The notes under the pieces are model-generated. The model ran no database searches. It saw only the letters and a program-made list of their open reading frames with translations, and was not told the origin of the DNA. From Neptunicoccus cionae (lineage in GTDB: Bacteria > Pseudomonadota > Alphaproteobacteria > Rhodobacterales > Rhodobacteraceae), in NCBI RefSeq assembly GCF_014643735.1, contig NZ_BMKA01000004.1, positions 1-64,000 on the forward strand: a stretch of DNA of 64,000 nucleotides, read 5' to 3'. Below are positions 34,790-56,058 of this stretch, one piece after another (the first letter of the stretch is position 1; each line of letters begins with the position of its first letter). Position numbers and translations under genes: made by a program.

Positions 34790-36390
34790 ACCCCTTACTG
34801 TCTGTGCGCAACCTGTTCGTACGCTTTGGCGAGACCCTTGCCGTTGACGATGTCTCTTTCGATCTTCCCAAAGGCGGTGCCTTAGGTATCGTCGGCGAGA
34901 GCGGGTCCGGAAAGTCTGTCACATGCCGTGCGCTGATGAAACTCTTGCCCACCACGGCCCTTGCGAAAGGCGAGATCAATTTCGACGGGCAGGATATTCT
35001 GGGGGCGTCCGAAGCCACACTGAACACCCTGCGGGGCAAACGCATTGCGATGATCTTTCAAAGCCCTGCGTCTCATCTTGATCCGCTGATGCGGATCGGG
35101 GACCAGGTTGCGGAAACCCTGCGCAAACACACAGACCTTAAAGGCCGCGCCATTCACCAAGAGGTCCTGCGCCTGTTGGATGTGGTGCGCATTCCCGAAC
35201 CGGAACGCTGGGCGCAGGCCTATCCGCATCAGTTGTCTGGCGGGATGAAGCAGCGGGCAATGATCGCTGGTGCGCTCGCGTGTAAGCCTGATTTGCTGCT
35301 GGCGGATGAACCGACAACGGCGCTTGATGCGACCGTGCAAAAGAGCGTTCTGGACCTGTTGGTGGACCTGCGCAAATCCCAAGGTCTGTCGATGATCTTC
35401 GTCAGCCATGACCTTGGCGCAGTAGCGCGGGTGTGCGAAGATGTTATCGTGATGCGGAAATCCCGCGTGGTTGAAACGGGCAAGACCCGCGAAGTTATTG
35501 ACGCACCGCAGCATGAATACACACAGATGTTGATCGCGTCCCACCCCGATCGCCTGACATTGCACACGCCGCAACCCGTCCCCCAAGCCACCCCCCTGAT
35601 AGAGGCCCGCGGGATGCAGATCAGATATGGTGGCGGCGGGTTGATCGACATCCTCACCAAACGCGCTGGCGGCTTTCTGGCTGTGAAAGGCGCTGATTTT
35701 ACCGTGCAACCCGGAGAGACCCTTGGCATTGTCGGGGAAAGCGGATCAGGCAAAAGCACAATGGCGCGTGCACTGGTGGGGCTGGTGAAACCTGCCGCAG
35801 GCGAAATCTTGTTTGAGGGCGCACCCGCCAAACCATTGGGGCGCAATCGGGCTGCCTATCTGCGCGATGTGCAACTGGTTTACCAACACCCCTACGAAGC
35901 CTTGTCCCCACGGATGCGCATCCGCGACGCCATCGCCGAACCGCTACGCCGCCACAAACTCTGCCCTGCGCAAGAGGTTCCCGCACGGGTTGCCGATCTG
36001 ATGGCGCAGGTCGATCTGGACCCCACACTCGGGGACCGACTGCCTGCGCAGCTATCGGGTGGACAGTGCCAACGGGTCGCGATTGCGCGGGCGCTGGCGA
36101 TGGACCCGCGGGTTCTGATCGCGGATGAAGTCACTTCGGCACTGGACGTAACCCTGCAAGCGCAGGTAATGGATCTTTTGATCCGGCTGCAAAAGGAACG
36201 GGGATTGACGATGATTTTTATCAGCCACGATCTCGCTGTGATCCGCCGGTTGTGCAATTCCGTGATTGTGATGCGGCGGGGCGAAATCGTCGAAGCCGGC
36301 CCGACCGGTCAGGTCTTTGACGATCCGGCACAAGAATACACGCGCACCCTGATTGATGCGATCCCGAGACTAGAAGCAGCGCATCCATGA
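34786..36390 (+). CDS. Fused peptide ABC transporter ATPase (DppD-DppF)
   Basis: A 534-residue protein with two complete ABC domains. Domain 1: Walker A GESGSGKS near residue 37, signature LSGGMKQR, Walker B LLLADEPTTALD. Domain 2: GESGSGKST near residue 315, signature LSGGQCQR, Walker B VLIADEVTSALD, where the usual catalytic DEP reads DEV but the glutamate is kept. In most systems DppD and DppF are separate; here one chain supplies both sites. Confidence 0.92.
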   Translation: MNPLLSVRNLFVRFGETLAVDDVSFDLPKGGALGIVGESGSGKSVTCRALMKLLPTTALAKGEINFDGQDILGASEATLNTLRGKRIAMIFQSPASHLDPLMRIGDQVAETLRKHTDLKGRAIHQEVLRLLDVVRIPEPERWAQAYPHQLSGGMKQRAMIAGALACKPDLLLADEPTTALDATVQKSVLDLLVDLRKSQGLSMIFVSHDLGAVARVCEDVIVMRKSRVVETGKTREVIDAPQHEYTQMLIASHPDRLTLHTPQPVPQATPLIEARGMQIRYGGGGLIDILTKRAGGFLAVKGADFTVQPGETLGIVGESGSGKSTMARALVGLVKPAAGEILFEGAPAKPLGRNRAAYLRDVQLVYQHPYEALSPRMRIRDAIAEPLRRHKLCPAQEVPARVADLMAQVDLDPTLGDRLPAQLSGGQCQRVAIARALAMDPRVLIADEVTSALDVTLQAQVMDLLIRLQKERGLTMIFISHDLAVIRRLCNSVIVMRRGEIVEAGPTGQVFDDPAQEYTRTLIDAIPRLEAAHP

Positions 36391-43806: not shown

Positions 43807-44778
43807 TTACTCGACGTTTTGGATACGTGTCACCAGTTCGGTGCCGTATTTGTCGGTGTAAACAGCGTAGGCAGGCTCTGCCAGTTTGGCGAAGGGGGCT
43901 TTGTCCACATCAGTGATCACTTCCATGCCGTTTTCACGCAGCAGGGCAACGCCAGCTTCTTCCAGACGGTTCACTTCGGCCCGTGTCGCCGCAGCCGATG
44001 CTTTGGCCGCTTCGTCAAACCAGCCTTTTTGCTCGTCTGTGAGGCCGTCCATCAGGATCGGAGAGGCCAGAACAATCGCCGGAGAATACACGTGCCCTGT
44101 CAGGGAAACATGGTTTTGCACTTCCCAGAATTTGGAGGATGTGATCACGGTGACAGGGTTTTCCTGACCGTCAACAACCCCTTGTTGCAGGGCTGTGAAC
44201 AGTTCGGGAAAGGCCATCGGGGTCGGAGATGCGCCCATACCGGAGAAGGCTTCCATGTGGACCTTGTTTTCCATTGTGCGCAGCTTCAGACCGTCCAGAT
44301 CGGCAGGTGTTTTTACCGCGCGTTTGGAGTTGGTCACATGGCGGAAGCCGTTTTCAGTCCACGCAAGACCAACCAGCTGGTTTTCTCCAACTTTAGCCAG
44401 CAGTTCCTGACCGATGTCACCGTCAAGTACCTTGCGCGCGTGGTCATAGCCACGGAACAGAAACGGCAGGTCGAGCGCGAAAACTTCGGGTACAAAGTTG
44501 CCAAGCGGGCCTGTGGAGGTGATCACCACATCCATAGAGCCGATTTGCAGACCTTCGATCATGTCCCGCTCACCGCCGAGCTGACCTGCGGGGGCTTGCG
44601 TGCCGGTGAACTCTCCGCCCGACAATTCTTCGAGCTTGGCGATGAATGCATCTGCGCCAACGCCGTAATGGGACGTGGGCGACAACGAGTGGCCGATCAC
44701 GATGGATTGCTCTGCCTGTGCAGGTGTAAAGCTTAGGGCAGCCAATGCGCTCGCCACTGCGAATACTGTATGTTTCAT
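43807..44778 (-). CDS. TRAP transporter periplasmic binding protein (DctP family)
   Basis: A 323-residue DctP protein with a signal peptide (cut after AQA, residue 22). Conserved parts include GGERDMIEGLQIGSMDVVIT and the carboxylate-binding arginine region GLKLRTMENKVH. Predicted ligand: D-erythronate or L-threonate, from the operon. Confidence 0.92.
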   Translation of the reverse strand: MKHTVFAVASALAALSFTPAQAEQSIVIGHSLSPTSHYGVGADAFIAKLEELSGGEFTGTQAPAGQLGGERDMIEGLQIGSMDVVITSTGPLGNFVPEVFALDLPFLFRGYDHARKVLDGDIGQELLAKVGENQLVGLAWTENGFRHVTNSKRAVKTPADLDGLKLRTMENKVHMEAFSGMGASPTPMAFPELFTALQQGVVDGQENPVTVITSSKFWEVQNHVSLTGHVYSPAIVLASPILMDGLTDEQKGWFDEAAKASAAATRAEVNRLEEAGVALLRENGMEVITDVDKAPFAKLAEPAYAVYTDKYGTELVTRIQNVE

Positions 44779-44852
44779 TTTGGTTCCTCCAATGGTATTA
44801 ATGTCTTAGGGTCTTTGTGACGCGCGGTGTAATGTGAACGCGCCCCTCCCAG

Positions 44853-45827
44853 TCAGGCCGATTGGCCCATCTCATCCTCGAGATAAATCCTGATGATTTC
44901 CTCGAAAGAATTCTCGGCACGGAACCCTGTTTCAAGGGCACGTACGGTGTCAAAATCGCGGGGCCAGCCCGCGACGATGCTGGCAATCGTCGCATCGGGT
45001 TCGCGGCGGATCAAGGCGACGGCCTCGTCTCCGGCCACTGCGCGCAGGGCCTCGATCTGTTCGGCCACAGTTGCAGACACGCCGGGCATGGTCATGCAAC
45101 GCTGCGCCCCGAGCGGGGCCGTGTCCATCATTGCCGCATGTTCGATGTAACCCACAGCCGCGCGGGGGCTGGCAAACCAGTGGCGCACGTCATCGTCTAC
45201 CGGCAGAATTGCTTCCTGACCGTTCAAAGGCTCCCGCAGGATGCCCGAAAAGAAGCCGGAGGCCGCTTTGTTCGGCTTGCCCGGACGGATGCAAATGGTC
45301 GGGAAGCGGATGCCTACCCCGTCCAGAATGCCACGGCGGGAATAATCGTTCAGCAGCAGCTCTCCCATCGCCTTTTGCGTGCCATAGCTGGTCAGCGGCG
45401 TGAGGTTGAAATCGTCGGAAATTTTTGTCGGGAAAGGTGCGCCAAACACGGCAAGCGACGAGGCATAGATCACCCGAGGGCAATAATCGGGCACGCCCGC
45501 AATGGCCTCTAGCAGCGCACGTGTTCCGTCCAGATTGACGCGGTAGCCTTTGTCCATATCGGCTTCGGCCTCTCCGGACACAATCGCGGCCAGATGCACG
45601 ATTACATCCGGCTTGTCAGCGACCAGCTTGGCAGCAACTCCGGCTTCGGTCAGATCAGCCGCATATGACACGCGCTGGCCTGTAAAATCCGTCGCAACAT
45701 CAGGCGCTACCACATCCACAAGGGTCATGGCGTCCACTGTCTGCCCGCCGATTGCGCCGGTTTGTGCGATGCGTTCTGCCAGCTTGCGCCCGATCATGCC
45801 CGCTGCGCCAATAATTGTAATTTTCAT
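44853..45827 (-). CDS. denD: D-erythronate dehydrogenase
   Basis: A 324-residue extended short-chain dehydrogenase/epimerase. NAD motif GAAGMIGRKLAERI and catalytic YxxxK as TSYGTQKAMGELL. DenD oxidises D-erythronate to 2-oxo-tetronate, feeding the same otnI-otnK-otnC route as LtnD. It overlaps the gntR gene by four bases. Confidence 0.88.
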   Translation of the reverse strand: MKITIIGAAGMIGRKLAERIAQTGAIGGQTVDAMTLVDVVAPDVATDFTGQRVSYAADLTEAGVAAKLVADKPDVIVHLAAIVSGEAEADMDKGYRVNLDGTRALLEAIAGVPDYCPRVIYASSLAVFGAPFPTKISDDFNLTPLTSYGTQKAMGELLLNDYSRRGILDGVGIRFPTICIRPGKPNKAASGFFSGILREPLNGQEAILPVDDDVRHWFASPRAAVGYIEHAAMMDTAPLGAQRCMTMPGVSATVAEQIEALRAVAGDEAVALIRREPDATIASIVAGWPRDFDTVRALETGFRAENSFEEIIRIYLEDEMGQSA

Positions 45828-46576
45828 TCTGATGCCTTCTTTTGTGGTGTCGCAAGCACGGCGCGCGTGCTGTCGTAAATGCGTCTTTCATGAATGCCCA
45901 AGCCGTCGGCCAACCCATCCGCATCCCCTGCCGTTAAGGCGGCAAGAATGACGCGGTGGTCCTCGATGCTTTGCGCTATGGCGCCCGTGGCTTCGATTGC
46001 GCGGCGGCGGTGATTCAGCTGATAAGAATAAAGTGTCGTGGCGAGGTCGGATAAAACCGCATTGCCACACGCCTGATAGATCGTCGTGTGAAAGGCACGG
46101 TCGGCGATCAGAAAACGCACCGGATCATTCCCAGCAGCCACTTGCGCTTCGATCAGTTTTTCCAGTTCGGCCAATGTCGCGGACTGCACCCGCTGCGCTG
46201 CCAGCCTTGCGACACGTTCCTCCACCATCAGACGACCTTCGTGAACGTCTTCCAACTCGTAATCCGTGACGCGACCGTTAAAGAGAGCCGACAACCCCAG
46301 CCCCCCCACGTCATCAGAAATCACTTTGGTGCGTGCGCCCTGAACGACAGAAACAAGGCCCTTGGTCGAAAGGATTAGCAATGCGCCACGAATGGTTTCG
46401 CGGCTGACGCCCATCGTCGCGGCCAGCTCACGTTCACTGGGCAGCGTATCGCCGACATTCATGACACCCGACGCGATCAGTGTTGCAAAGCGTGCGGCAA
46501 CCTCGTCCTTAACGGAGCGATGCGTTACCTTATTTAAAGGCGCATTCTGTCCTGCCAAAAGAGCGTTTTCGCCCAT
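45824..46576 (-). CDS. GntR/FadR family regulator with FCD domain
   Basis: A 250-residue regulator. The N-terminal winged HTH carries SERELAATMGVSRETIRGAL; the C-terminal FCD domain has metal-binding histidines (RAFHTTIYQA, EDHRVILAAL). It is the first gene of the erythronate/threonate operon, and a dyad just upstream suggests autoregulation with the sugar acid or an oxo-tetronate as ligand. Confidence 0.88.
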   Translation of the reverse strand: MGENALLAGQNAPLNKVTHRSVKDEVAARFATLIASGVMNVGDTLPSERELAATMGVSRETIRGALLILSTKGLVSVVQGARTKVISDDVGGLGLSALFNGRVTDYELEDVHEGRLMVEERVARLAAQRVQSATLAELEKLIEAQVAAGNDPVRFLIADRAFHTTIYQACGNAVLSDLATTLYSYQLNHRRRAIEATGAIAQSIEDHRVILAALTAGDADGLADGLGIHERRIYDSTRAVLATPQKKASE

Positions 46577-46610
46577 CCAAGTCCTCCGTCCAAAACCAGT
46601 TCCCAGCTAA

Positions 46611-46639
46611 CTGGTCTGGTTACTAGACCACTAGACCAG
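46611..46639. promoter_or_regulatory. Candidate FadR-type operator of the otn/den operon
   Basis: CTGGTCT (46611-46617) and AGACCAG (46633-46639) are perfect arms, with inner GGTTACTAGACC adding TGGTCTAG repeats on the minus strand. It lies 35 bases before the gntR start. FadR-family proteins typically bind TGGTxxxACCA-like sites. Confidence 0.55.
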
Positions 46640-46737
46640 AGTGGAGTCAAACGGTTTAATTAGAGCGAAAGCCAAGTTTTGTTCTGTGCGGGTTATTCAA
46701 TGGGTTCAGGAATGGCATCGACGCCAAAATCGTTCTG

Positions 46738-46809
46738 ACCTCTACGTGTCGAAAGACACGGAGGTGCTGCATTCGGGACGGTGAACAATCGCCCCCGCCC
46801 CGAACGCAT
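46738..46809. other. Two stem-loops downstream of the periplasmic DsrE gene
   Basis: Hairpin 1: ACCTC and GTGTC pair with GACAC and GAGGT around a GAAA tetraloop (46738-46765). Hairpin 2: GCATTCGGG (46770-46778) pairs with CCCGAACGC (46801-46809 region) with one wobble. No T-run on either side, so they may mark an RNA 3' end or protect the leftward transcript. Confidence 0.4.
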
Positions 46810-46830
46810 TATAAAAATGTCAAACCAACA

Positions 46831-47295
46831 TCACGGTTTTATATAGGTATAACCCTGCTGTTGAAGATGGGATAACTCAGCAACTCCGCTTGGCACGATA
46901 TCCTCCTCAAACACGTCGAACAGGTCATCGTTGTAGGAAATTTTGCGCCCTCTAAGTGTATTATTACAGACGTGCACGGCTACATTCTGACCTTTGAGTT
47001 CCAAAATCTGGCCTTGCAACAATTCATTTGTCTTGGCCTGCGATAACAACCCGAGACCATTGCCGTGGAGAACAACTTTGATCTCCATATTCTCCGCCCC
47101 AACCGCGTTGATGTGGTTCTGGATGTTCCGCATGGCGCCGCGATATTTCTTATCATCTGCACCACCATCATAGTTGATGTGGTAGACCACCTTTTGCTTT
47201 CCATAACGTTCATTAGCCTCGGCATTAAGCCCTGAAGACAACATCACAACGGCAAAGAGCATGAGTGCTGTGGCGATCGAATATAAGAATTTCAT
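46831..47295 (-). CDS. Periplasmic DsrE-like protein
   Basis: A 154-residue protein with a signal peptide (MKFLYSIATALMLFAVVMLS, cut near residue 27) and a DsrE/F-like fold: IKVVLHGNGLGLL and VAVHVCNNTLRGR with a single conserved cysteine. It is similar in layout to the DsrE-like protein at 58554, so it is likely a sulfur-binding or sulfur-carrier protein of the Sox locus. Last gene of the leftward soxS-soxR arm, 115 bases after the LuxR-type regulator. Confidence 0.75.
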   Translation of the reverse strand: MKFLYSIATALMLFAVVMLSSGLNAEANERYGKQKVVYHINYDGGADDKKYRGAMRNIQNHINAVGAENMEIKVVLHGNGLGLLSQAKTNELLQGQILELKGQNVAVHVCNNTLRGRKISYNDDLFDVFEEDIVPSGVAELSHLQQQGYTYIKP

Positions 47296-47397
47296 AGTTT
47301 CCTCCCTGAAAATTCCAGTTCATTCTGGTCTTTACAGGATGCCACGCCCGTGCAGTCACGCCAGCTAGCATAAGCCCCGATGTTCGGGAGAAAATCG

Positions 47398-47415
47398 CCT
47401 AGGGTATACCCTAGG
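47398..47415. promoter_or_regulatory. 18-bp perfect palindrome, candidate operator
   Basis: CCTAGGGTATACCCTAGG at 47398-47415 is perfectly symmetric. It covers the TAG stop (47413-47411) of the PhnD-LuxR regulator gene and lies 103 bases before the DsrE gene on the same strand. The TACCC/GGGTA elements recall sites of NarL/LuxR-type HTH proteins. A role as the binding site of the adjacent regulator is inferred. Confidence 0.55.
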
Positions 47416-48634
47416 TCGCCATAGCGACGAGCTGGCTAGAGGTTCGCGCACCGAATTTCTTCAACAAATTTGCGCGGTGAAACTCCACTGTTTTTGGGCT
47501 GATCCCCAATTCTTTGGCAATCTCTTTGGTTGAGTGTCCCTGAGCGACGAATTTTAGAACCTGTTCCTCCCGCTGGGTCAGGGAAACTCCGCCTGCGTTG
47601 ACAGGGCCAGACCGGCCCGCCTCTTTGCGCTTTGAATGAAACAGCCAAAGCACCCATCCAGCGAGCAGCACAATAGGCAGGGCTGCAAAGACAATCCAAA
47701 ACTTCAGTCTGGTTAATCCGTTCTCTCGCTGCGCGTTTACAGCAAGGCTGCTATCAAACCGCCGCCGCAACTCTACAACGCTGTGATAAGATACTGGTGC
47801 AGACCAATTGTCTATCATTCCTGCCTTTTGCGCGGCGGGACTGCTGCCTGACTGCAAGAGAGTTAACGCTACACGGTCCCTCAATACGGGGTCGGTTGTG
47901 GCAAGTGCCGAAAACGTCCACTCGGGAACCAAGCGGGTGCTTGTGATGTCGGGATGACCATAAGTGGCGCTTGAATTCAGGAATTCCAGCTCTGCCGGAT
48001 CGACCCGACCCTCTGCGGCCAGCTCTTCGATCAATCCACTGCGCACAATCCCAACATCAACACCACCCTCCTGCACCAGCCTCACGATTTGATCCATAGG
48101 AAACCCGACAAACCGCAATGCGGCCGGATCTGTGTGAAGATCAATACCCGCCCGATCAAATTCACTCCAAGCCAGTTGAAATCCGCCAAAAGCGTATCGG
48201 TCCACCGCGGCCACCGTTTTACCCTTCACGTCCTGCAATGTGGAAATACCGCTCCGTTTAAGGGCAAAGATCGTGCTCCCGAACTTGCCTGTTAACGATC
48301 CGTCAGACTTCCGTTGCAATCGTGACGCAATCACGCTCATCCGGTGGATGCCATTTAGATCCACGAAATGTCCCGGATTGGTGACTACAAAATCTAGCTG
48401 TTCAGTCTCAATTTGTTCAAACGCCGAGGACAGGGTCATCGGGATGATGGAAAAGGTCCACTCGGGGATGGTCGCATTGAGATAGGTGCTTAGGTTTTGC
48501 CACTTATCTTGGACCTGATCAGAACCCCGAAAGGCAAGAACCCCGATACGGGCTTCGCGGGGTGGCTCTTGTGCCAGACTCCCAAGCGCCATAGCGCACC
48601 AGAGGAACACTAAATAAACCGGAATACGGGTCAC
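47411..48634 (-). CDS. Membrane one-component regulator: PhnD-like sensor, TM helix, LuxR-type HTH
   Basis: A 407-residue protein. Residues 1-21 form a signal or anchor helix; about 28-290 is a PhnD/TtrS-like periplasmic binding domain (ARIGVLAFRG, TNPGHFVDL, FVGFPMDQIVRLVQEGGVDVGIVRS). A membrane helix spans 312-333 and residues 350-407 are a LuxR/NarL HTH (LTQREEQVLKFVAQGHSTKEI). No histidine kinase or receiver domain is present. It should sense a periplasmic sulfur anion or other ligand and bind DNA directly from the membrane. The GTG at 48634 has a strong GGAGGAG site. It lies in the soxS-soxR-tsuA-like arm, probably controlling the DsrE gene downstream. Confidence 0.85.
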   Translation of the reverse strand: MTRIPVYLVFLWCAMALGSLAQEPPREARIGVLAFRGSDQVQDKWQNLSTYLNATIPEWTFSIIPMTLSSAFEQIETEQLDFVVTNPGHFVDLNGIHRMSVIASRLQRKSDGSLTGKFGSTIFALKRSGISTLQDVKGKTVAAVDRYAFGGFQLAWSEFDRAGIDLHTDPAALRFVGFPMDQIVRLVQEGGVDVGIVRSGLIEELAAEGRVDPAELEFLNSSATYGHPDITSTRLVPEWTFSALATTDPVLRDRVALTLLQSGSSPAAQKAGMIDNWSAPVSYHSVVELRRRFDSSLAVNAQRENGLTRLKFWIVFAALPIVLLAGWVLWLFHSKRKEAGRSGPVNAGGVSLTQREEQVLKFVAQGHSTKEIAKELGISPKTVEFHRANLLKKFGARTSSQLVAMAT

Positions 48635-48708
48635 TAACTCTCCTCCCCAATTCGCGTTTGCTCTACCCCTATGATCCTTGCGCACGGGCATAGCCCACCA
48701 TCACCCGC

Positions 48709-49764
48709 CTAAACTGAAGGCGCATAGCCCAATATCAGTTGCCGCAATCCGATTGCTGCTCCGATACCGATAAAAACCAGTGTCAAAGGCGCGCTGTAAG
48801 CCAACACAGAAAATGCAGACAATCCTTGTCCGACGCTGCAACCTACCGCTACGACCGCACCGATCCCCATAAGAACCGCCCCGAACATCTGGCGGCGCAA
48901 TTCTCTTGGGTCCTCGCAGGCCTCCCAGCGGAAATGACCCTTTATCATGCTCCCCAATAACGCCCCGACGACAACTCCGATAACCGATCCGGTGCCAAAG
49001 CTGATGGAATTACCTGAAGAGGTCATTGCATAGAGTATCGTTTCACCAATGGGGGCAGAAAACGTATGGCTGACCACACGGGTTGCATCAAACCCGTTGC
49101 TTGCAACCCACTGCGTCCCGGCCCAACCTGATAAAATCGCTACCCCAGCGGCCGCACCCCAAAACATATGACTATAGGAACGACGCAGAGGGCGGTGCGC
49201 TAAAGTGATGATTAAAATGGCTATACCGACCGTTATACCGGCCGTTTCGGGCGATACACCGCTTTGCTGTGCCAGAAAATCTGCAAGCGAATTGGATCTT
49301 GTCGCCTCGACGGTGTCACCGAATATCCAGACACGCAGCGCCGACAAAGGGCCACCCAATGTGACGTAAGCCGATACGCCCATAACCAGAACTATCATCA
49401 AAGAGCGTAAGTCGCCGCCCCCTACGCGGGCGAGCGCGCCATATCCACAGTTGCCAGCAAGCGCCATGCCATAGCCAAAGACCAAGCCGCCAACGATACT
49501 TTCCAGCGGATTCCACTGCCTCGAAAGATAGAGAGTTTGCTGAAGATCGAGCAGCCCGACTGCCGCCAGGCCGAAAGTCCCGACAATCGAGACTCCGATA
49601 GCAAGGCCCCACATCCGCAACCGCAGGGTATTCTCTCCGTAAAAAAGATCTTCGATCGCACCTAAGGTGCAAAAGCGCCCCATGCGGGCGGCCAGTCCCA
49701 GAATGATACCACCGAACAGGCCAACCAACGCGGTGAAAGCCGGTTCTGAAATATGGTCAAACAT
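48709..49764 (-). CDS. YeeE/YedE (DUF395) family thiosulfate permease, TsuA-like
   Basis: A 351-residue membrane protein with two repeats. Conserved cysteines are in GRFCTLGAIEDLF, GNCGYGALARVGGGDLRS and VGCSVGQGLSAFS, matching the TsuA family of thiosulfate importers in which cysteines pass the anion through the pore. In Sox clusters such genes are often called soxT. It probably imports thiosulfate or a sulfur intermediate. 45 bases separate it from soxR. Confidence 0.85.
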   Translation of the reverse strand: MFDHISEPAFTALVGLFGGIILGLAARMGRFCTLGAIEDLFYGENTLRLRMWGLAIGVSIVGTFGLAAVGLLDLQQTLYLSRQWNPLESIVGGLVFGYGMALAGNCGYGALARVGGGDLRSLMIVLVMGVSAYVTLGGPLSALRVWIFGDTVEATRSNSLADFLAQQSGVSPETAGITVGIAILIITLAHRPLRRSYSHMFWGAAAGVAILSGWAGTQWVASNGFDATRVVSHTFSAPIGETILYAMTSSGNSISFGTGSVIGVVVGALLGSMIKGHFRWEACEDPRELRRQMFGAVLMGIGAVVAVGCSVGQGLSAFSVLAYSAPLTLVFIGIGAAIGLRQLILGYAPSV

Positions 49765-49809
49765 ACCCGCCCCCCACGTGTAGATTGAGGAACCACGCTG
49801 GCTCCTAGG

Positions 49810-50166
49810 TCACTTTTCGCGACAAAACAGATCGTAGACCACTTCCATGATCTGCTTTGGCCGGTCGTCTGTCAGCCTGTAGTAGATCGCCTTACCATCA
49901 CGCCTTGGTGTCACCAAACCTTCAAGACGGAGCCGCGATAATTGCTGTGACACTGCGGCCTGACGGGACGATAAAAGGTTTTCCAACTCCGTCACCGACT
50001 TCTCGCCGGATGCCAGATGACACAGGATCATTAAACGACCCTCATGACTGATCGCTTTCAGAAAGTTGGACGCTTCCAAAGCATTGGCAGCCATTTTATC
50101 CATGTCTTCGGCACACATGTTTACGTCGAAAGTTGGAAGACCCATAGAATTCTCAATCTTGTGCAA
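49810..50166 (-). CDS. soxR: ArsR-type sulfur-responsive repressor SoxR
   Basis: A 118-residue ArsR winged HTH (SSRQAAVSQQLSRLRLEGLV recognition helix). Cysteines C49 and C115 are 66 residues apart, the same spacing as the redox pair of SqrR, which forms a tetrasulfide with reactive sulfur species. SoxR represses sox genes in related bacteria by binding the soxS-soxV and soxW-soxX gaps; similar sequences are seen in both gaps here. Downstream of soxS in the leftward arm. Confidence 0.9.
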   Translation of the reverse strand: MHKIENSMGLPTFDVNMCAEDMDKMAANALEASNFLKAISHEGRLMILCHLASGEKSVTELENLLSSRQAAVSQQLSRLRLEGLVTPRRDGKAIYYRLTDDRPKQIMEVVYDLFCREK

Positions 50167-50211
50167 TGTTGTCGTTAAACGGGTAGTGGTTGGCGAATTC
50201 CTATACAGTCC

Positions 50212-50580
50212 TCATCCTGACATATCAACATCAGCGTCTCGAAGCATTTTGCCAAGCAATCCCCAAAAGAAATCCTCTCCGGGATAACCCTCAATCCGCG
50301 AGACCTCTTGCCCGTCCACAACCAGCACAAAGGTTGGCGTAAAATGTAGCGATCTGGCGAACTTGATATCATCCGGACGCTCTGCGTGTATGTCAATCCG
50401 CTGCAATGGCGCTGCACGACCTTCTTCGGATTTCGGGTAAATATGGGATATTTCGTCGTTCCATCGCGCGCACCAAATGCACCCGTGTTCTTCCACCATG
50501 ACAAGTCGCACCTGACCAGAGGCTTGCACCAGAGACAGGGCAAGCAAGGCAAAGCTGACAATCAAGGACCTGAGGAACAT
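50212..50580 (-). CDS. soxS: Periplasmic thioredoxin-like SoxS
   Basis: A 122-residue protein with a signal peptide (MFLRSLIVSFALLALSLVQA) and a thioredoxin active site CIWC, followed by a cis-proline region HFTPTFVLVVDG. SoxS reactivates the SoxYZ carrier by reducing the SoxY cysteine. It is first in the leftward arm, divergent from soxV, with a SoxR-like box between. Confidence 0.88.
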   Translation of the reverse strand: MFLRSLIVSFALLALSLVQASGQVRLVMVEEHGCIWCARWNDEISHIYPKSEEGRAAPLQRIDIHAERPDDIKFARSLHFTPTFVLVVDGQEVSRIEGYPGEDFFWGLLGKMLRDADVDMSG

Positions 50581-50613
50581 GTGTAATTGACCTTTTCTTA
50601 ATATACAACGTAA

Positions 50614-50635
50614 TATGAATATGTGAATTATTCAA
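50614..50635. promoter_or_regulatory. Putative SoxR operator, soxS-soxV gap
   Basis: An AT-rich stretch running from ATATGAATATG (50614) to a TGAATTATTCA dyad (50625-50635). A closely related sequence lies in the soxW-soxX gap, and both positions match known SoxR-binding sites in Pseudaminobacter. Confidence 0.6.
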
Positions 50636-50650
50636 GGGCGAGACAGTCAC

Positions 50651-51391
50651 ATGATGGAAATTACCTATTTCGGCGCGGCCTTCGCCGGTTTGCTCTCGTT
50701 TTTGTCCCCCTGCATCCTGCCGATTGTCCCCTTTTATCTCAGCTATCTGGCTGGGGTCGGTATGAACCAGATAACCGCAGATGCCGCGATTGACGGGAAA
50801 ACCCGCAGGCGAGCGGTCCTTGCAGCGTGCTTTTTCTCTGCCGGAGTCATCACGATCTTTATAGGGCTCGGGGCGGCGGCTACCCTGTTCGGCCAGATCG
50901 TGCGCGAGTATTTCGATGTCCTCCGCTGGCTTGCTGCTGCTATGATAATTGCGATGGGCTTGCATTTTCTTGGCGTGATCCGGATCGGATTTTTGTACCG
51001 GCAATTGCGCGCTGATGCAGGCAACACATCCAATGTCAGCCTTGCCGGTGCTTACGTTATCGGTTTGGCTTTTGCCTTTGGGTGGACACCTTGCGTCGGT
51101 CCCGTGCTGGCAGCAATCCTGTTCACCGCAGCGGGCGCTGACGCTCTGTCCGGCGGGACTGCACTATTGTTTGTCTATGGTCTGGGCATGACAGCCCCCT
51201 TTGTTTTGGCGGCCCTTTTTATCGGGCCATTCATGCGCTGGATGTCCGGCTTTCGCAGGCACCTTAGCCTGATTGAAAAAATCATGGGTGGGATGCTGAT
51301 CGTATTTGGCCTGCTAATCGCAACAAACTCAATGAACTATATCGCGCAGTGGATGCTGGAGGTTGGTCCAGACATCGGCGTGCTGCGTTAA
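50651..51391 (+). CDS. soxV: SoxV, CcdA-type thiol:disulfide interchange protein
   Basis: A 246-residue, six-helix CcdA/DsbD-beta protein. The two redox cysteines are in FLSPCILPIVP and WTPCVGPVLA. It carries reducing power from the cytoplasm to periplasmic SoxW. Tandem ATGs at 50651 and 50654. First gene of the rightward sox operon. Confidence 0.9.
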   Translation: MMEITYFGAAFAGLLSFLSPCILPIVPFYLSYLAGVGMNQITADAAIDGKTRRRAVLAACFFSAGVITIFIGLGAAATLFGQIVREYFDVLRWLAAAMIIAMGLHFLGVIRIGFLYRQLRADAGNTSNVSLAGAYVIGLAFAFGWTPCVGPVLAAILFTAAGADALSGGTALLFVYGLGMTAPFVLAALFIGPFMRWMSGFRRHLSLIEKIMGGMLIVFGLLIATNSMNYIAQWMLEVGPDIGVLR

Positions 51392-51406
51392 ATCGGAGGA
51401 TCACGG

Positions 51407-51961
51407 ATGTTACGTTTATTTCTCGCATTGGTTGTCTCGCTCAATCTGTTCACCAGCGCATCTGCTGCGGAGCTTGGCGACGATGGCCTGCACAAAACCG
51501 CATGGATGCGTGACACGTTTAAAGACCTGTCCGAGGATCTTGCGGAAGCGAATTCCGAAGGTAAACGACTTATTGTTATGGTCGAGCAACGGGGCTGTAT
51601 TTACTGCAAGAAAATGCACGAGGAGGTTTTCCCGCGCCCCGAGATTGCATCCTACATCGAAAACAATTTCTTTGTGGTGCAGGTTAACATGTTTGGCGAC
51701 GTGGAAATGACTGATTTCGATGGAACTGCCCTACCGGAAAAGGAGATGGTGAAAAAATGGGGCGTCCTGTTTACGCCGATGATCCTGTTTTTTCCCGAAA
51801 CCGTAGATCCGGCGCTTACCGCTTCTCAGGCCACAGTGGCCACAATGCCGGGAGCATTTGGCCCTGACATGACGTTAAATCTGCTGCGCTGGGTGGTTGA
51901 AAAAGGCTACGATGGCGAAGAAACCTTCCAAAAGTATCACGCCCGCATGCTCGCTGAGTAA
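51407..51961 (+). CDS. soxW: SoxW, periplasmic thioredoxin
   Basis: A 184-residue thioredoxin-like protein with a signal peptide ending SASA and active site CIYC (EQRGCIYCKKMHEEVF). Receives electrons from SoxV and reduces periplasmic Sox partners. Fifteen bases after soxV. Confidence 0.9.
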   Translation: MLRLFLALVVSLNLFTSASAAELGDDGLHKTAWMRDTFKDLSEDLAEANSEGKRLIVMVEQRGCIYCKKMHEEVFPRPEIASYIENNFFVVQVNMFGDVEMTDFDGTALPEKEMVKKWGVLFTPMILFFPETVDPALTASQATVATMPGAFGPDMTLNLLRWVVEKGYDGEETFQKYHARMLAE

Positions 51962-52000
51962 GGGAAGCAGTTGCGGCGGGGGTAAATGTTCGTTCAGCTA

Positions 52001-52026
52001 CATATGAAATAATTCACGTACATGAA
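52001..52026. promoter_or_regulatory. Putative SoxR operator, soxW-soxX gap
   Basis: On the minus strand this reads ATTCATGTACGTGAATTATT followed by TCATATG, sharing the GTGAATTATT core with the soxS-soxV site. It sits 65 bases before soxX, the known position of the second SoxR site in related bacteria. Confidence 0.55.
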
Positions 52027-52090
52027 TTTGTTGTTGCGTATAGCAGCGTCTGTACGCTACTCTACCGCAAAACAGTGTTTGGGAGGACTC

Positions 52091-52564
52091 ATGAAAATTT
52101 CATTAACCGGAGCAGTTTTTGGTGCTGTCATGGCCTCGGCGGTATACGCTGGGGAAGTTCTGCCAACCGCAGTGGCTTTTACCGACGGGGCAGTCGAACA
52201 ATCCCTTTCCGGTATGCCCGGCGACGCCGCCAACGGACGATTGATCGTTGGTGACAAGAAGAAGGGCAACTGCGTAGCTTGCCATCAGGTGTCCGATTTA
52301 GCAGACGTTCCCTTTCAAGGGGAAATCGGCCCGCCACTGGACGGCGCTGGCGAACGGTGGAGCGAAGCAGAGTTACGCGGAATTGTCGCGAACGCAAAAA
52401 TCATGTTTGAGGACAGTATGATGCCGTCTTTTTACAAAACCGAAGGCTTCATTCGGCCGGGCAAAGCCTACACAGGCAAGGCTGCCGATGACACATTCGG
52501 CCCGCTGTTGGGCGCGCAACAAATTGAAGATGTCGTGGCGTATCTGACCACACTGAAAGAGTAA
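52091..52564 (+). CDS. soxX: SoxX, monoheme cytochrome c
   Basis: A 157-residue exported cytochrome: signal peptide to about residue 20, heme motif C61VACH65, axial methionine in DSMMPSFYK. With SoxA it forms SoxAX, which couples thiosulfate to the SoxY cysteine. The ATG at 52091 follows GGGAGG; upstream in-frame codons lack a site. Confidence 0.93.
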   Translation: MKISLTGAVFGAVMASAVYAGEVLPTAVAFTDGAVEQSLSGMPGDAANGRLIVGDKKKGNCVACHQVSDLADVPFQGEIGPPLDGAGERWSEAELRGIVANAKIMFEDSMMPSFYKTEGFIRPGKAYTGKAADDTFGPLLGAQQIEDVVAYLTTLKE

Positions 52565-52619
52565 CCTGCCCCCAAGGGGGTATTGAAGTACAGCCCCTCG
52601 GGGTGGAGGAGAGTTATAA

Positions 52620-53039
52620 ATGGAACTAACAAGACGAAGTGCAATCCTTCTTGGTGCGAGCGCGATCTTTGTCGCAGGCCTGCCAAAGATCGGTGCTGCA
52701 GCGACCGGTGATGATCTTATCGCCGAATTTACCGGCGGTGCCGAAGTTGGTGAGGGTGACCTGAAGCTGGTTGCACCGGAAATTGCAGAAAACGGCAACA
52801 CCGTTCCAATCGAAGTATCATCCGGTTCAGCCGCGGAAATTCTGGTGCTTGCGATGGGCAACCCGACGCCCAGCGTTGCGACCTTCAAATTCGGCAAACT
52901 TGCAGCATCCCGCGCCGCATCGACACGTATCCGCCTTGCAGGCACTCAGGATGTTGTCGCCATTGCGAAGCTTGAGGATGGCTCGTTCGTCAAAGCATCA
53001 AGCACCGTAAAAGTCACTATTGGCGGCTGCGGCGGTTAA
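52620..53039 (+). CDS. soxY: SoxY, sulfur-carrier subunit
   Basis: A 139-residue protein with a Tat-type leader (TRRSAILLGASAIF) and the C-terminal swinging arm GGCGG carrying C137, to which sulfur intermediates are covalently attached. Partner of SoxZ. GGAGGAG precedes the start. Confidence 0.95.
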   Translation: MELTRRSAILLGASAIFVAGLPKIGAAATGDDLIAEFTGGAEVGEGDLKLVAPEIAENGNTVPIEVSSGSAAEILVLAMGNPTPSVATFKFGKLAASRAASTRIRLAGTQDVVAIAKLEDGSFVKASSTVKVTIGGCGG

Positions 53040-53059
53040 AGAATTCAGGAGAAAATATC

Positions 53060-53389
53060 ATGGCATCTGGTGTAAAACCCCGCGTCAAAGTTCCAAAATC
53101 CGCTGCCGCGGGTGAGGCTATTACAATTAAGACTCTGATCAGTCACAAGATGGAATCCGGTCAGCGTAAAGATAGCGACGGCAACATCATTCCGCGCTCG
53201 ATCATCAACAGGTTTACGTGCGATTTCAACGGCGAGAACGTCGTTGACGTGGAACTGGCCCCTGCGATCTCGACCAACCCATATTTTGAATTCGAAGCTC
53301 TGGTTCCAGAAGCTGGCGAGTTCAAGTTCACGTGGTACGACGATGACGGCTCGGTTTACGAAACATCCAAAAAAATTGCGATTGGCTGA
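53060..53389 (+). CDS. soxZ: SoxZ
   Basis: A 109-residue immunoglobulin-like subunit without its own signal, exported with SoxY. Features KAAAGEAI-like start (PKSAAAGEAITIKTLISHKM) and FKFTWYDDDGSVYE are diagnostic. Twenty bases after soxY. Confidence 0.95.
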   Translation: MASGVKPRVKVPKSAAAGEAITIKTLISHKMESGQRKDSDGNIIPRSIINRFTCDFNGENVVDVELAPAISTNPYFEFEALVPEAGEFKFTWYDDDGSVYETSKKIAIG

Positions 53390-53414
53390 TTATCACAGTC
53401 TTGGGAGGGACATC

Positions 53415-54260
53415 ATGAGAAAATTGACAGGTGCCATACTGGCGACATTGTTGACTACACCCGTAGCCTTTGCCGATCCGGTCGATGATACACTGGTCCT
53501 GAACGAAGAGACTGAGATAGTGACGCGAACTGCCGCTCCGGATCATCTTTCGGACTCGCTGGATGAAGTAATGTCCGGCTGGCTGTTCCGCGGCAAGGAA
53601 ACCCGCGCCATGCAGGCGGACGACTTCGACAATCCGGGCATGATTTTTGTTGAACAGGCCATGGACAGTTGGAATGCAGTGGACGGGTCGGAAGGCAAGT
53701 CCTGTGCATCCTGTCACGACGGTTTGGAGACTATGGCCGGTGTGAAAGCGACCTATCCTAAGTGGGACGAGGCCGCCGGCAAAGTTCAAACCTTGCAGAT
53801 GCAGGTGAACGAATGCCGGACCGAACGCATGGGCGCCGAGGCATGGCCATACGACAAGGGCAATGCGATCAATATGGAGGCAGCCTTGTCTTCGGTCTCT
53901 CGTGGGTTGCCTGTTAACGTTGCCATTGATGGACCCGCCAAGGAGACTTGGGAACAGGGTAAGGACATGTACTATACCCGCACGGGTCAGCTCGAACTGT
54001 CTTGCGCGAATTGCCATGAAGACAACTATGGCAATATGATCCGTGCGGATCATCTCAGTCAGGGGCAAATCAACGGATTTCCGGTTTATCGGCTTAAAAA
54101 TACCAAACTGAACGGGTCGCATTCTCGCTTTAAGGGCTGCATCCGGGACACAAGGGCCGAGACCTACAAGCCTGGCAGTCCCGAGTTCATCGCTTTGGAG
54201 CTGTATGTCACGTCCCGTGGCAATGGGCTGAGCGTGGAAGGTCCGTCCATCCGCAACTAA
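53415..54260 (+). CDS. soxA: SoxA, diheme cytochrome c
   Basis: A 281-residue exported cytochrome. Signal peptide to residue 20; heme motifs C97ASCH101 and C197ANCH201; the active-site cysteine C242 in KGCIRDTRAE carries the persulfide ligand. Two hemes are present, as in Paracoccus-type SoxA. ATG at 53415 follows GGGAGG. Confidence 0.95.
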   Translation: MRKLTGAILATLLTTPVAFADPVDDTLVLNEETEIVTRTAAPDHLSDSLDEVMSGWLFRGKETRAMQADDFDNPGMIFVEQAMDSWNAVDGSEGKSCASCHDGLETMAGVKATYPKWDEAAGKVQTLQMQVNECRTERMGAEAWPYDKGNAINMEAALSSVSRGLPVNVAIDGPAKETWEQGKDMYYTRTGQLELSCANCHEDNYGNMIRADHLSQGQINGFPVYRLKNTKLNGSHSRFKGCIRDTRAETYKPGSPEFIALELYVTSRGNGLSVEGPSIRN

Positions 54261-54268
54261 AACGAATG

Positions 54269-54298
54269 TAGTCTCGCGATCTTACGGTTGCGGGACTA
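54269..54298 (+). terminator. Hairpin between soxA and soxB
   Basis: TAGTCTCGC (54269-54277) pairs with GCGGGACTA (54290-54298) with one wobble, followed by TTCTTACC. A leaky terminator or mRNA-stability element; soxB may also have its own promoter in the AT-rich 54300-54340. Confidence 0.5.
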
Positions 54299-54354
54299 TT
54301 CTTACCATAACTTATTCATAAATGCGCATATAAGCGTATGATCCGGAGACACGA

Positions 54355-56058
54355 ATGATATCCCGCCGCGACTTTATGCAAACCTCTATGGCGACTGCCG
54401 CCATATACGGCTCTACCGGATTTGGAAACTGGGCGCGGCTTGCAGCGCAACAGGCGCTTACCCAAGACAAGCTGCTGGAATTCGACACGTTCGGAAACGT
54501 CTCGCTGATCCATATCACGGATATACACGCCCAGCTGAAACCGATCTATTTCCGAGAGCCGGAAATCAACATAGGTGTGGGCGATAACAAAGGTGTGGTG
54601 CCGCACGTCACTGGCGCGGATTTCCGCAAGCTTTACGGGATCAACGACGGCAGCCCTTCGGCCTATGTGCTAAGCTATGAAGACTTCTCCGCTCTCGCCA
54701 AGACCTATGGTCGGGTTGGTGGGCTTGACCGTGTTGCAACCGTCATCAATTCCATCCGGTCCGAACGTCCCGATGCCCTATTGCTGGACGGGGGCGACAC
54801 ATGGCACGGCAGTTACACCTGTTATCATACTGAAGGGCAGGACATGGTGAATGTCATGAACGCCCTGAAGCCGGACGCGATGACCTTCCATTGGGAATTC
54901 ACCCTTGGTTCGGATCGGGTCAATGAAATTGTAGAAGGTCTGCCATTTGCGGCTTTGGGCCAGAACATTTTCGATGCCGAATGGGACGAACCGACAGAGC
55001 TTTTCCCCCCATATAAGTTTTACGAAAGCGGTGGGGTCAAAATCGCCGTGATCGGTCAAGCTTTCCCTTATATGCCAATTGCCAATCCGGGCTGGATGTT
55101 CCCCGAATACTCCTTTGGGATCCGTGATGAACGGATGCAGGAAATGGTTAACGAAGTCCGCAGCAAAGGCGCCGAACTGGTTGTTTGCCTCAGCCACAAC
55201 GGGTTTGATGTGGACAAGCAAATGGCTGGGACGGTCGAAGGCATCGACGTGATCCTGTCCGGACACACCCACGACGCGCTGCCCGAACCGGTTCTGGTGG
55301 GCGAAACCATCATCGTGGCCTCCGGCTCTAACGGAAAATTTGTCAGTCGTGTTGATTTGAATGTACAGAACGGGCGCATGATGGGGTTCCGTCACAAGCT
55401 GATACCGATCTTCTCTGACGTGATTACCCCTGACAAAAGCATAACCGCACTGATAGATGAACAACGCGCGCCCTATCTGGATGCATTGACCGAGGTGATC
55501 GGGAAAACCGGCGACGACCAACTGCTGTATCGGCGCGGGAACTTTAACGGGACGTGGGACGACCTGATCTGCGACGCCCTGATTTCCGAACGCGATGCAG
55601 ACATCGCACTGTCTCCCGGCGTGCGCTGGGGGCCGTCCATTCTGCCGGGTCAGGACATCACCCGTGAAGATATCTGGAATGTCACCTCTATGACGTACGG
55701 AGAAGCATACCGCACCGAAATGACGGGCGAGTTTTTGCATATTGTTCTGGAAGATGTGGCGGACAACCTGTTCAACCCCAATCCCTACTACCAGCAAGGC
55801 GGTGATATGGTGCGGGTTGGTGGTTTGGGCTACCGGATTGATGTGACCAAGCCGCAGGGCAGCCGGATTACAGATATGACGCTGCTGAAAACCGGCGAGA
55901 AAATCGACCCATCGAAGACGTATCAGGTGGCCGGTTGGGCCTCTGTGAACGAGGACACCGAAGGCCCAGCAATTTGGGATGTTGTCGAGGCCCACATCGC
56001 TAAGCAAGGGGTCATCTCTCTCGATCCAAATAACAGTGTAAAGGTTGTCGGTGCCTAA
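54355..56058 (+). CDS. soxB: SoxB, dimanganese sulfate thiohydrolase
   Basis: A 567-residue 5'-nucleotidase-family enzyme with a Tat leader (SRRDFMQTSMATAA). Metal ligands in ITDIHAQLK (D56, H58), DGGDTWHGS, LSHNGFD and SGHTHD. It hydrolyses the terminal sulfone of thiosulfonate-SoxY to release sulfate. Confidence 0.95.
   Translation: MISRRDFMQTSMATAAIYGSTGFGNWARLAAQQALTQDKLLEFDTFGNVSLIHITDIHAQLKPIYFREPEINIGVGDNKGVVPHVTGADFRKLYGINDGSPSAYVLSYEDFSALAKTYGRVGGLDRVATVINSIRSERPDALLLDGGDTWHGSYTCYHTEGQDMVNVMNALKPDAMTFHWEFTLGSDRVNEIVEGLPFAALGQNIFDAEWDEPTELFPPYKFYESGGVKIAVIGQAFPYMPIANPGWMFPEYSFGIRDERMQEMVNEVRSKGAELVVCLSHNGFDVDKQMAGTVEGIDVILSGHTHDALPEPVLVGETIIVASGSNGKFVSRVDLNVQNGRMMGFRHKLIPIFSDVITPDKSITALIDEQRAPYLDALTEVIGKTGDDQLLYRRGNFNGTWDDLICDALISERDADIALSPGVRWGPSILPGQDITREDIWNVTSMTYGEAYRTEMTGEFLHIVLEDVADNLFNPNPYYQQGGDMVRVGGLGYRIDVTKPQGSRITDMTLLKTGEKIDPSKTYQVAGWASVNEDTEGPAIWDVVEAHIAKQGVISLDPNNSVKVVGA

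Follow-up and report, generated by a model that had tools for sequence, protein, structure and literature searches.

A predicted membrane-bound one-component regulator pairs a TtrS-like periplasmic domain with a LuxR-type DNA-binding domain and a candidate operator in front of dsrE

The window, by which we mean the whole 64,000-nucleotide stretch of Neptunicoccus cionae DNA that was analysed, carries on its minus strand a gene for a 407-residue protein (47411..48634) that combines sensor and regulator in one chain. The protein begins with a signal sequence (approximately residues 1–22, 48569..48634; hydrophobic core VYLVFLWCAMAL, the end of the signal being judged by eye), followed by a PhnD-like periplasmic binding domain (residues 30–270, 47825..48547; PF12974, E 8.9e-32; TtrS family NF040750), a transmembrane helix (approximately residues 314–332, 47639..47695; mean hydropathy 2.52, with a net charge of +3 behind the helix) and a LuxR/GerE-type helix-turn-helix (HTH) domain containing the motif ISPKTVEFHR (residues 351–406, 47417..47584; PF00196, E 3.8e-21), all encoded on the minus strand. 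The reading frame runs from a GTG at 48634 to a stop at 47411; an in-frame ATG at 48691 offers an alternative start, which is less likely because the hydrophobic signal sequence comes after the GTG. Upstream on the same strand lie a gene for a TsuA/YeeE-like permease (48709..49764; PF04143, E 8.9e-63), SoxT by its position beside soxR, and a soxR-like ArsR-family repressor gene (49810..50166; Pfam and NCBIfam). Downstream, also on the minus strand, is the predicted target gene, dsrE (46831..47295), whose product has a hydrophobic N-terminus read as a signal peptide and belongs to the DsrE family (PF02635, E 1.9e-12, residues 63–154). Pfam and NCBIfam searches thus bear out the permease, repressor and DsrE neighbours named in an earlier, sequence-only reading of this DNA.

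That reading had also proposed a PhnD-type domain joined by a single transmembrane helix to a LuxR-type HTH, with neither kinase nor receiver, and Pfam, NCBIfam and hydropathy analysis confirmed this anatomy, which we regard as established. No kinase or receiver domain was found in the protein by Pfam search. The best NCBI family for the sensor half is NF040750 (TtrS; E 2.4e-50, residues 28–334), matched over profile positions 7–307 of 555 with 171.6 bits, below the cut-off of 750; the protein therefore has the PhnD-like periplasmic sensor domain of the TtrS family (NF040750, PF12974) and lacks its kinase core, as judged by this score and by Pfam. The C-terminal GerE domain (PF00196) is that of the LuxR/FixJ-type HTH proteins, and EsrB and FixJ were the best chains for it in a search of solved structures. 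The helix expected between the domains is present as a single hydrophobic 19-mer, IVFAALPIVLLAGWVLWLF, at approximately residues 314–332, and a corresponding 19-mer occurs in all 18 proteins of this architecture (means 1.53–2.95), marginally so in L033 (1.53) and L035 (1.57). In the L041 sensor frame as read, no signal core was identified. The protein fits the definition of a transmembrane transcription regulator, a DNA-binding domain and a transmembrane region in one protein, given in the excerpted text of PMC10269533, and its architecture is not a product of chance, since full-length relatives are known at 34–58% identity.

A scan of GTDB contigs yielded five loci at 50–58% identity to the window sensor, from an uncultured Sulfitobacter, Sulfitobacter sp. 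F26169L, Sulfitobacter brevis DSM 11443 (L004), a Silicimonas MAG and a Rhodobacterales MAG. Family scans used evenly drawn samples. G003 is the Sulfitobacter behind locus L003, and of 394 genomes sampled from its family at least 16 matched at E 1e-40 or better, a lower bound because at most four candidates were scored per genome. Thirteen of these 16 have the direct PhnD-TM-LuxR architecture, G269 has an additional cytoplasmic stretch ahead of the HTH, and G008 and G351 lack a direct HTH, the former encoding a TtrS-like kinase and the latter a longer PhnD protein that is kinase-like by a simple motif test (the architectures of L037 and L086 were assigned by eye). In L086, from G269, a 648-residue frame comprises a PhnD domain, a transmembrane helix, approximately 215 residues with no assigned domain and a LuxR HTH, a second one-component layout; the weak palindrome behind this regulator (6.6 bits by the site matrix described below) is the best of its locus.

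When 385 genomes drawn at class level were searched with a profile built from 17 sensors (A2), four matches were obtained at 1e-60, namely the control G003 and three PhnD kinases. The phylum-level draw (398 genomes) gave 29 genomes at the same threshold: the control, one more one-component case (G864) and 27 whose matches end before the end of the HTH. Among the phylum-level loci read, no PhnD frame other than those of G864 and the control runs directly into an HTH. Plasmids were searched too, and 372 records matched, seven of them covering at least 80% of the query (the 40 best records being listed); the relatives H1 and H11 are PhnD proteins of approximately 600 residues whose genes precede a response regulator gene, and are therefore probably kinases. 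Positions 44000–56000 of the window gave no megablast match to plasmids. The comparisons below rest on 18 loci, from the window, G001–G005, eleven family genomes (G067, G075, G148, G161, G181, G185, G210, G324, G363, G379 and G387) and G864; L001–L004 are identical to L038, L039, L036 and L037, respectively, and were counted once, and the flanks are short or cut in L005, L029, L032 and L035.

Neighbourhoods were compared by tblastn of 17 window proteins against the loci. This established the pairing of the sensor with dsrE, which follows it immediately and in the same orientation in 15 of the 18 loci, the window included, with a fragment in one more; the count takes in L029, where the frame is broken after approximately 94 residues, L035, where it is cut by the contig end, and L033, where identity is 28% as against 60–81% elsewhere. 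The fragment, in L005 (4290–4439), is a short frame resembling the dsrE signal sequence and first residues, and may be a remnant of the gene or an assembly fault. No dsrE was found behind the sensor in L032 or L034. In L032 (G161, 79–1047) and in L086 (63–1199), a solute-binding protein gene (PF13531) takes the place of dsrE behind the regulator; the two proteins look alike by eye, and that of L032 is ModA-like at a score below the cut-off. The sensor–dsrE pair recurs in largely different neighbourhoods. Five loci (L026, L027, L028, L030 and L031) have flanking gene families in common around the pair (clusters 2 and 3, and partly 4 and 5). A scan for sigma-70 promoters found none in front of dsrE.

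At the junction of the two genes lies CCTAGGGTATACCCTAGG, a perfect 18-bp palindrome of the form CCTAGGG-N4-CCCTAGG (47398..47415, no strand assigned) that overlaps the TAG stop of the sensor gene and precedes dsrE, and which we predict to be an operator. Exact copies are expected 4e-5 times in 64 kb under a dinucleotide model. With up to three mismatches allowed, the window has three matches against 1.56 expected, a number reached by 17 of 100 shuffles, so only the exact match is remarkable. We built a symmetric matrix of 20 positions from nine sites, each locus being scored without its own site. A matrix site stands just behind the sensor gene in 16 of the 18 loci, at 11.2–32.5 bits, and is the best of the examined stretch in 15 of them and the second best in L026; no convincing site was found behind the sensor in L034 (2.9 bits) or in L074, which has dsrE. 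Of the nine sensor loci outside the training set, among which L029 is close to the training locus L030, six have their best-scoring site behind the sensor. Best scores in shuffled loci, one shuffle each, averaged 8.9 bits and reached 19.5, so that sites of 11–15 bits count only through their place.

Comparison of dsrE genes establishes that the site is conserved and that it occurs together with the sensor. Within 450 bp upstream, 15 of the 16 dsrE genes with an adjacent regulator have a site of at least 11.2 bits, and at the 17 close dsrE genes lacking a detected sensor no score rises above 0.7 bits, these 17 being the sensor-less ones among 27 genomes of the same family draw with a close dsrE (E up to 4e-30). 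The exact palindrome occurs four times in the 394 family genomes, each time directly behind the sensor (G002, G075, G210 and G379); the reversed pattern, used as a control, turns up seven times in six of these genomes. We considered a wider regulon and rejected it, there being never more than one exact site per genome across the 394. With up to two mismatches allowed, matches outnumber those of the reversed control in only one of 21 genomes (G210, nine against four), which makes looser counting uninformative on this point. A degenerate second copy of the palindrome can be seen in the window (47361–47379), where it is very weak and visible only by alignment, and in L033 (10624), L039 (17055) and L041 (10605), at a distance of approximately 33–35 bp from the first, or 62 bp in L041.

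A palindrome that overlaps a stop codon could instead be the transcription terminator of the sensor gene. The window palindrome is indeed terminator-like, with the tail CGATTTTCTC, and over 20 sites pairing holds in 85.0% of cells, a level reached by only 31 of 500 shuffles. Yet five T in the eight bases behind the stem are present at only three of the 20 sites, the window among them, and covariation does not rise above that of shuffles (62 of 500 shuffles reached its score, and 407 of them its number of pairs with both bases changed). What is conserved is the letters of the left half, and we judge a terminator to be highly unlikely.

Similar sites also accompany PhnD relatives of other architecture. 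In four of 15 such loci, one lies between the response regulator gene and a target, which is a set of tetrathionate reductase-like genes, dsrE or sox. In L040 (G008), the kinase is TtrS-like (353.2 bits against a cut-off of 750) and the response regulator scores 225.2 bits with the FixJ model and 172.7 with the TtrR model, both under cut-off; a site of 20.9 bits follows, and then genes that score best with the TtrB, TtrC and TtrA models without reaching any of these cut-offs. The TtrB-like protein passes the DsrO cut-off as well, at a lower score. The order in L075 (G988) is kinase, regulator, site (25.7 bits) and dsrE (50%). In L076 (G523), the regulator is followed by a site of 11.6 bits and sox genes, and in L077 (G447) by one of 14.2 bits and soxCD; these two PhnD-kinase systems adjoining sox hint at kinase-based control of sox by sulfur compounds elsewhere. 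In each of the other 11 loci, none of the three best sites exceeds 9.9 bits, and all lie approximately 1 kb or more from the PhnD gene.

The sequence-only reading had taken the sensor to be a second control layer for the sox operon itself, and the window gives some grounds for this. The sensor adjoins soxR and soxT, and the sensor–dsrE pair is co-oriented with soxS, soxR and soxT and follows them, the successive gaps being 45, 45 and 74 bp, an arrangement in which it may be co-transcribed with them. SoxB is moreover encoded elsewhere in all nine sensor genomes tested (78–90% identity; only sensor-bearing genomes were included), and the two-component relatives beside sox in L076 and L077 favour the same reading and leave a link to sulfur oxidation likely. 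Against it, a sox cluster is found in none of the 17 other loci in which the architecture was detected, within the available flanks, some of them short. The sole sox match there is a partial SoxB (36%) approximately 8.6 kb away in L037, and tblastn found no TsuA-like permease beside the sensor in these loci. Set against 15 of 18 for dsrE, the 0 of 17 for sox means that dsrE is the usual neighbour and that the sox genes beside the window sensor are exceptional. The site in front of dsrE is also the only strong one in the 64 kb, the next best (11.3 bits at 35366) lying outside the sox operon, and exact sites, at most one per genome in 394, lie beside the sensor. Control of sox thus did not hold up as a claim, and we consider it unlikely. 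Neither TtrR nor tetrathionate reductase genes are present near the sensor in the window, where its neighbours are TsuA-like, SoxR-like, DsrE, GntR and sox genes. dsrE adjoins sox operons in three of 17 loci without a detected sensor (L126, L133 and L135).

The geometry of the site has counterparts in published work. The ThsR element TATGTGGTTTACCACAAT has the same N4 spacing, and its mutation abolished activation by thiosulfate, whereas mapping of the Shewanella baltica TtrR site was inconclusive by the authors' own account (excerpts of PMC5408782); in V. parahaemolyticus, a ttrR box GTGG-N4-CCAC was required for gel shifts (excerpt of PMC11293645). In the ttr locus of an E. coli plasmid, GTGGTTAACCAC stands between ttrB and ttrS. 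All seven regulators with an R-T-[VI]-E recognition helix, a set that includes close relatives, have GTGG-N4-CCAC in their locus and none has TAGGG-N4-CCCTA. For the K-T-[VI]-[EQ] helix, TAGGG-N4-CCCTA is present in 10 of 23 loci; GTGG-N4-CCAC is found in 10 of the 23 as well, mostly in longer stretches, the window copy being inside dsrE. As far as these sequences indicate, with L005 outside the pattern and counts uncorrected for relatedness, recognition helix and site letters go together.

We next turn to the periplasmic half and its origin. In an unrooted maximum-likelihood tree of 52 PhnD domains, the 18 one-component sensors fall on one side of a branch (support 88/83; 90% of bootstrap trees), and TtrS stands apart from them. 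The sensor HTH is 34–47% identical to those of the response regulators. The simplest history would be a single loss of kinase and receiver with the place and geometry of the site kept. Our preferred reading, which we hold to be probable, is that a TtrSR-type two-component system has shrunk to a single transcription factor in the membrane, which senses a sulfur oxyanion and controls dsrE. The fuller version, that a TtrSR-type phosphorelay collapsed once into such a factor, keeping the ancestral operator geometry and place and ending as a circuit of one operator and one gene acting on an exported DsrE, we favour with rather less assurance.

The predicted structure of the sensor was poor (mean pLDDT 51.7, pTM 0.40, six sequences in the alignment), and the ligand pocket was therefore compared by sequence only. 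Of 45 positions conserved at 94% or more in the 18 sensors, 38 are identical in the L040 TtrS-like kinase and 33 in the L137 TtrS. All 18 have Gly at position 200, where Cys is found in five of 11 comparison rows, all five in the TtrS clade, which suggests that the ligand may not be tetrathionate. This difference could also mean that the PhnD-like part is a relic or senses something other than sulfur, for example phosphite or phosphonate; PtxB, named as a phosphite-binding protein, was the best-scoring solved binding protein by sequence (E 1.5e-9), and no chain named TtrS was among the matches listed in that search. The 38 positions common with the L040 kinase argue otherwise, as do the sulfur genes that are the neighbours of the sensor and the targets of its relatives, and a non-sulfur ligand or a relic seems improbable to us. 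Alternatively, the sensor could read the state of an exported, sulfur-loaded DsrE rather than a free anion, the two forming a feedback pair. The two genes occur side by side in 15 of 18 loci whose surroundings largely differ, which speaks for this; on the other side, the conserved positions are common to TtrS-type kinases, and L032 keeps sensor and site with another gene downstream. We regard such feedback as very unlikely.

The regulator inferred here, descended from a TtrS/TtrR-type system through loss of kinase and receiver, would bind a sulfur oxyanion, most likely thiosulfate or tetrathionate, in its periplasmic PhnD-like domain. The choice of ligand follows the published responses of TtrS and ThsS to tetrathionate and thiosulfate, as summarized in the excerpts available, while Gly200 warns against equating the sensors. 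The signal would cross the single transmembrane helix to the LuxR-type HTH, a dimer of which would bind CCTAGGG-N4-CCCTAGG at 47398–47415, as site conservation and co-occurrence suggest. From the membrane, it would then control the adjacent dsrE, probably by activation, a direction taken from the analogy with TtrR and ThsR; control of dsrE by the sensor is itself a prediction from sequence. The exported DsrE may carry sulfane or thiosulfonate sulfur. A DsrE homologue forms a protein thiosulfonate with tetrathionate (excerpt of PMC4175335), which would fit a tetrathionate-responsive dsrE. The analysis as a whole supports the earlier proposal of a one-component regulator in the membrane that joins a TtrS-like periplasmic domain to a LuxR-type HTH and probably reads a sulfur oxyanion.

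TtrS/TtrR and ThsS/ThsR, each a PhnD-domain kinase with a LuxR/FixJ-type response regulator, resemble the window system in their homologous periplasmic domain, LuxR-type HTH, N4 palindrome before the target and sulfur context. Here, by contrast, there is no kinase, receiver or phosphorelay, sensor and HTH are in one polypeptide, dsrE is downstream, the site is CCTAGGG rather than GTGG, and position 200 is Gly instead of the Cys of the TtrS clade. ToxR and CadC have an N-terminal cytoplasmic winged HTH and a C-terminal periplasmic domain. The sequence-only reading likened the sensor to them, and in principle this stands, since it too would be one membrane protein binding DNA without phosphotransfer. 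The likeness does not extend to domain order, sensor fold or HTH class: the family layout is not found in the sensor, which has an N-terminal signal and PhnD domain outside and a C-terminal GerE HTH inside.

Rsp of Neisseria gonorrhoeae, in which the PilS receptor is joined to the PilR DNA-binding domain and which represses pilA (PMC10269533, in excerpt), likewise unites the receptor and DNA-binding halves of a two-component pair in one membrane protein. By its description there, it differs from the window sensor in both sensor and target, and it offers a precedent for a fused two-component origin. In Hyphomicrobium denitrificans, SoxR and SoxT1B (PMC11582611, in excerpt) likewise provide sulfur-responsive control encoded beside a YeeE-like soxT, although that system is a repressor signalled via a YeeE-like membrane protein and the window sensor is a one-protein membrane sensor. 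The available text of PMC10269533 counts 50,302 transmembrane regulators, which may include sequences of the present architecture. Transmembrane one-component regulators are known, whereas the pairing of PhnD with a LuxR-type HTH and its own site was not found described. Among the literature matches listed, with subscription journals and supplements outside the scope, there was no description of the PhnD-TM-LuxR architecture, in agreement with the sequence-only reading; nor did those matches include a one-component sulfur-oxyanion sensor or a role for an exported DsrE.

If the preferred reading is true, this family records the conversion of a two-component into a one-component system in which operator geometry and placement were retained, and the ancestral and collapsed forms of one circuit could be compared along with their DNA sites. 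The thiosulfate and tetrathionate sensors in the literature examined, as far as the excerpts extend, are kinase-based; the regulator would add a compact periplasmic sensor for one or other of these compounds. It would also give the exported DsrE, which adjoins sox operons in some genomes, a proposed regulator and DNA site.
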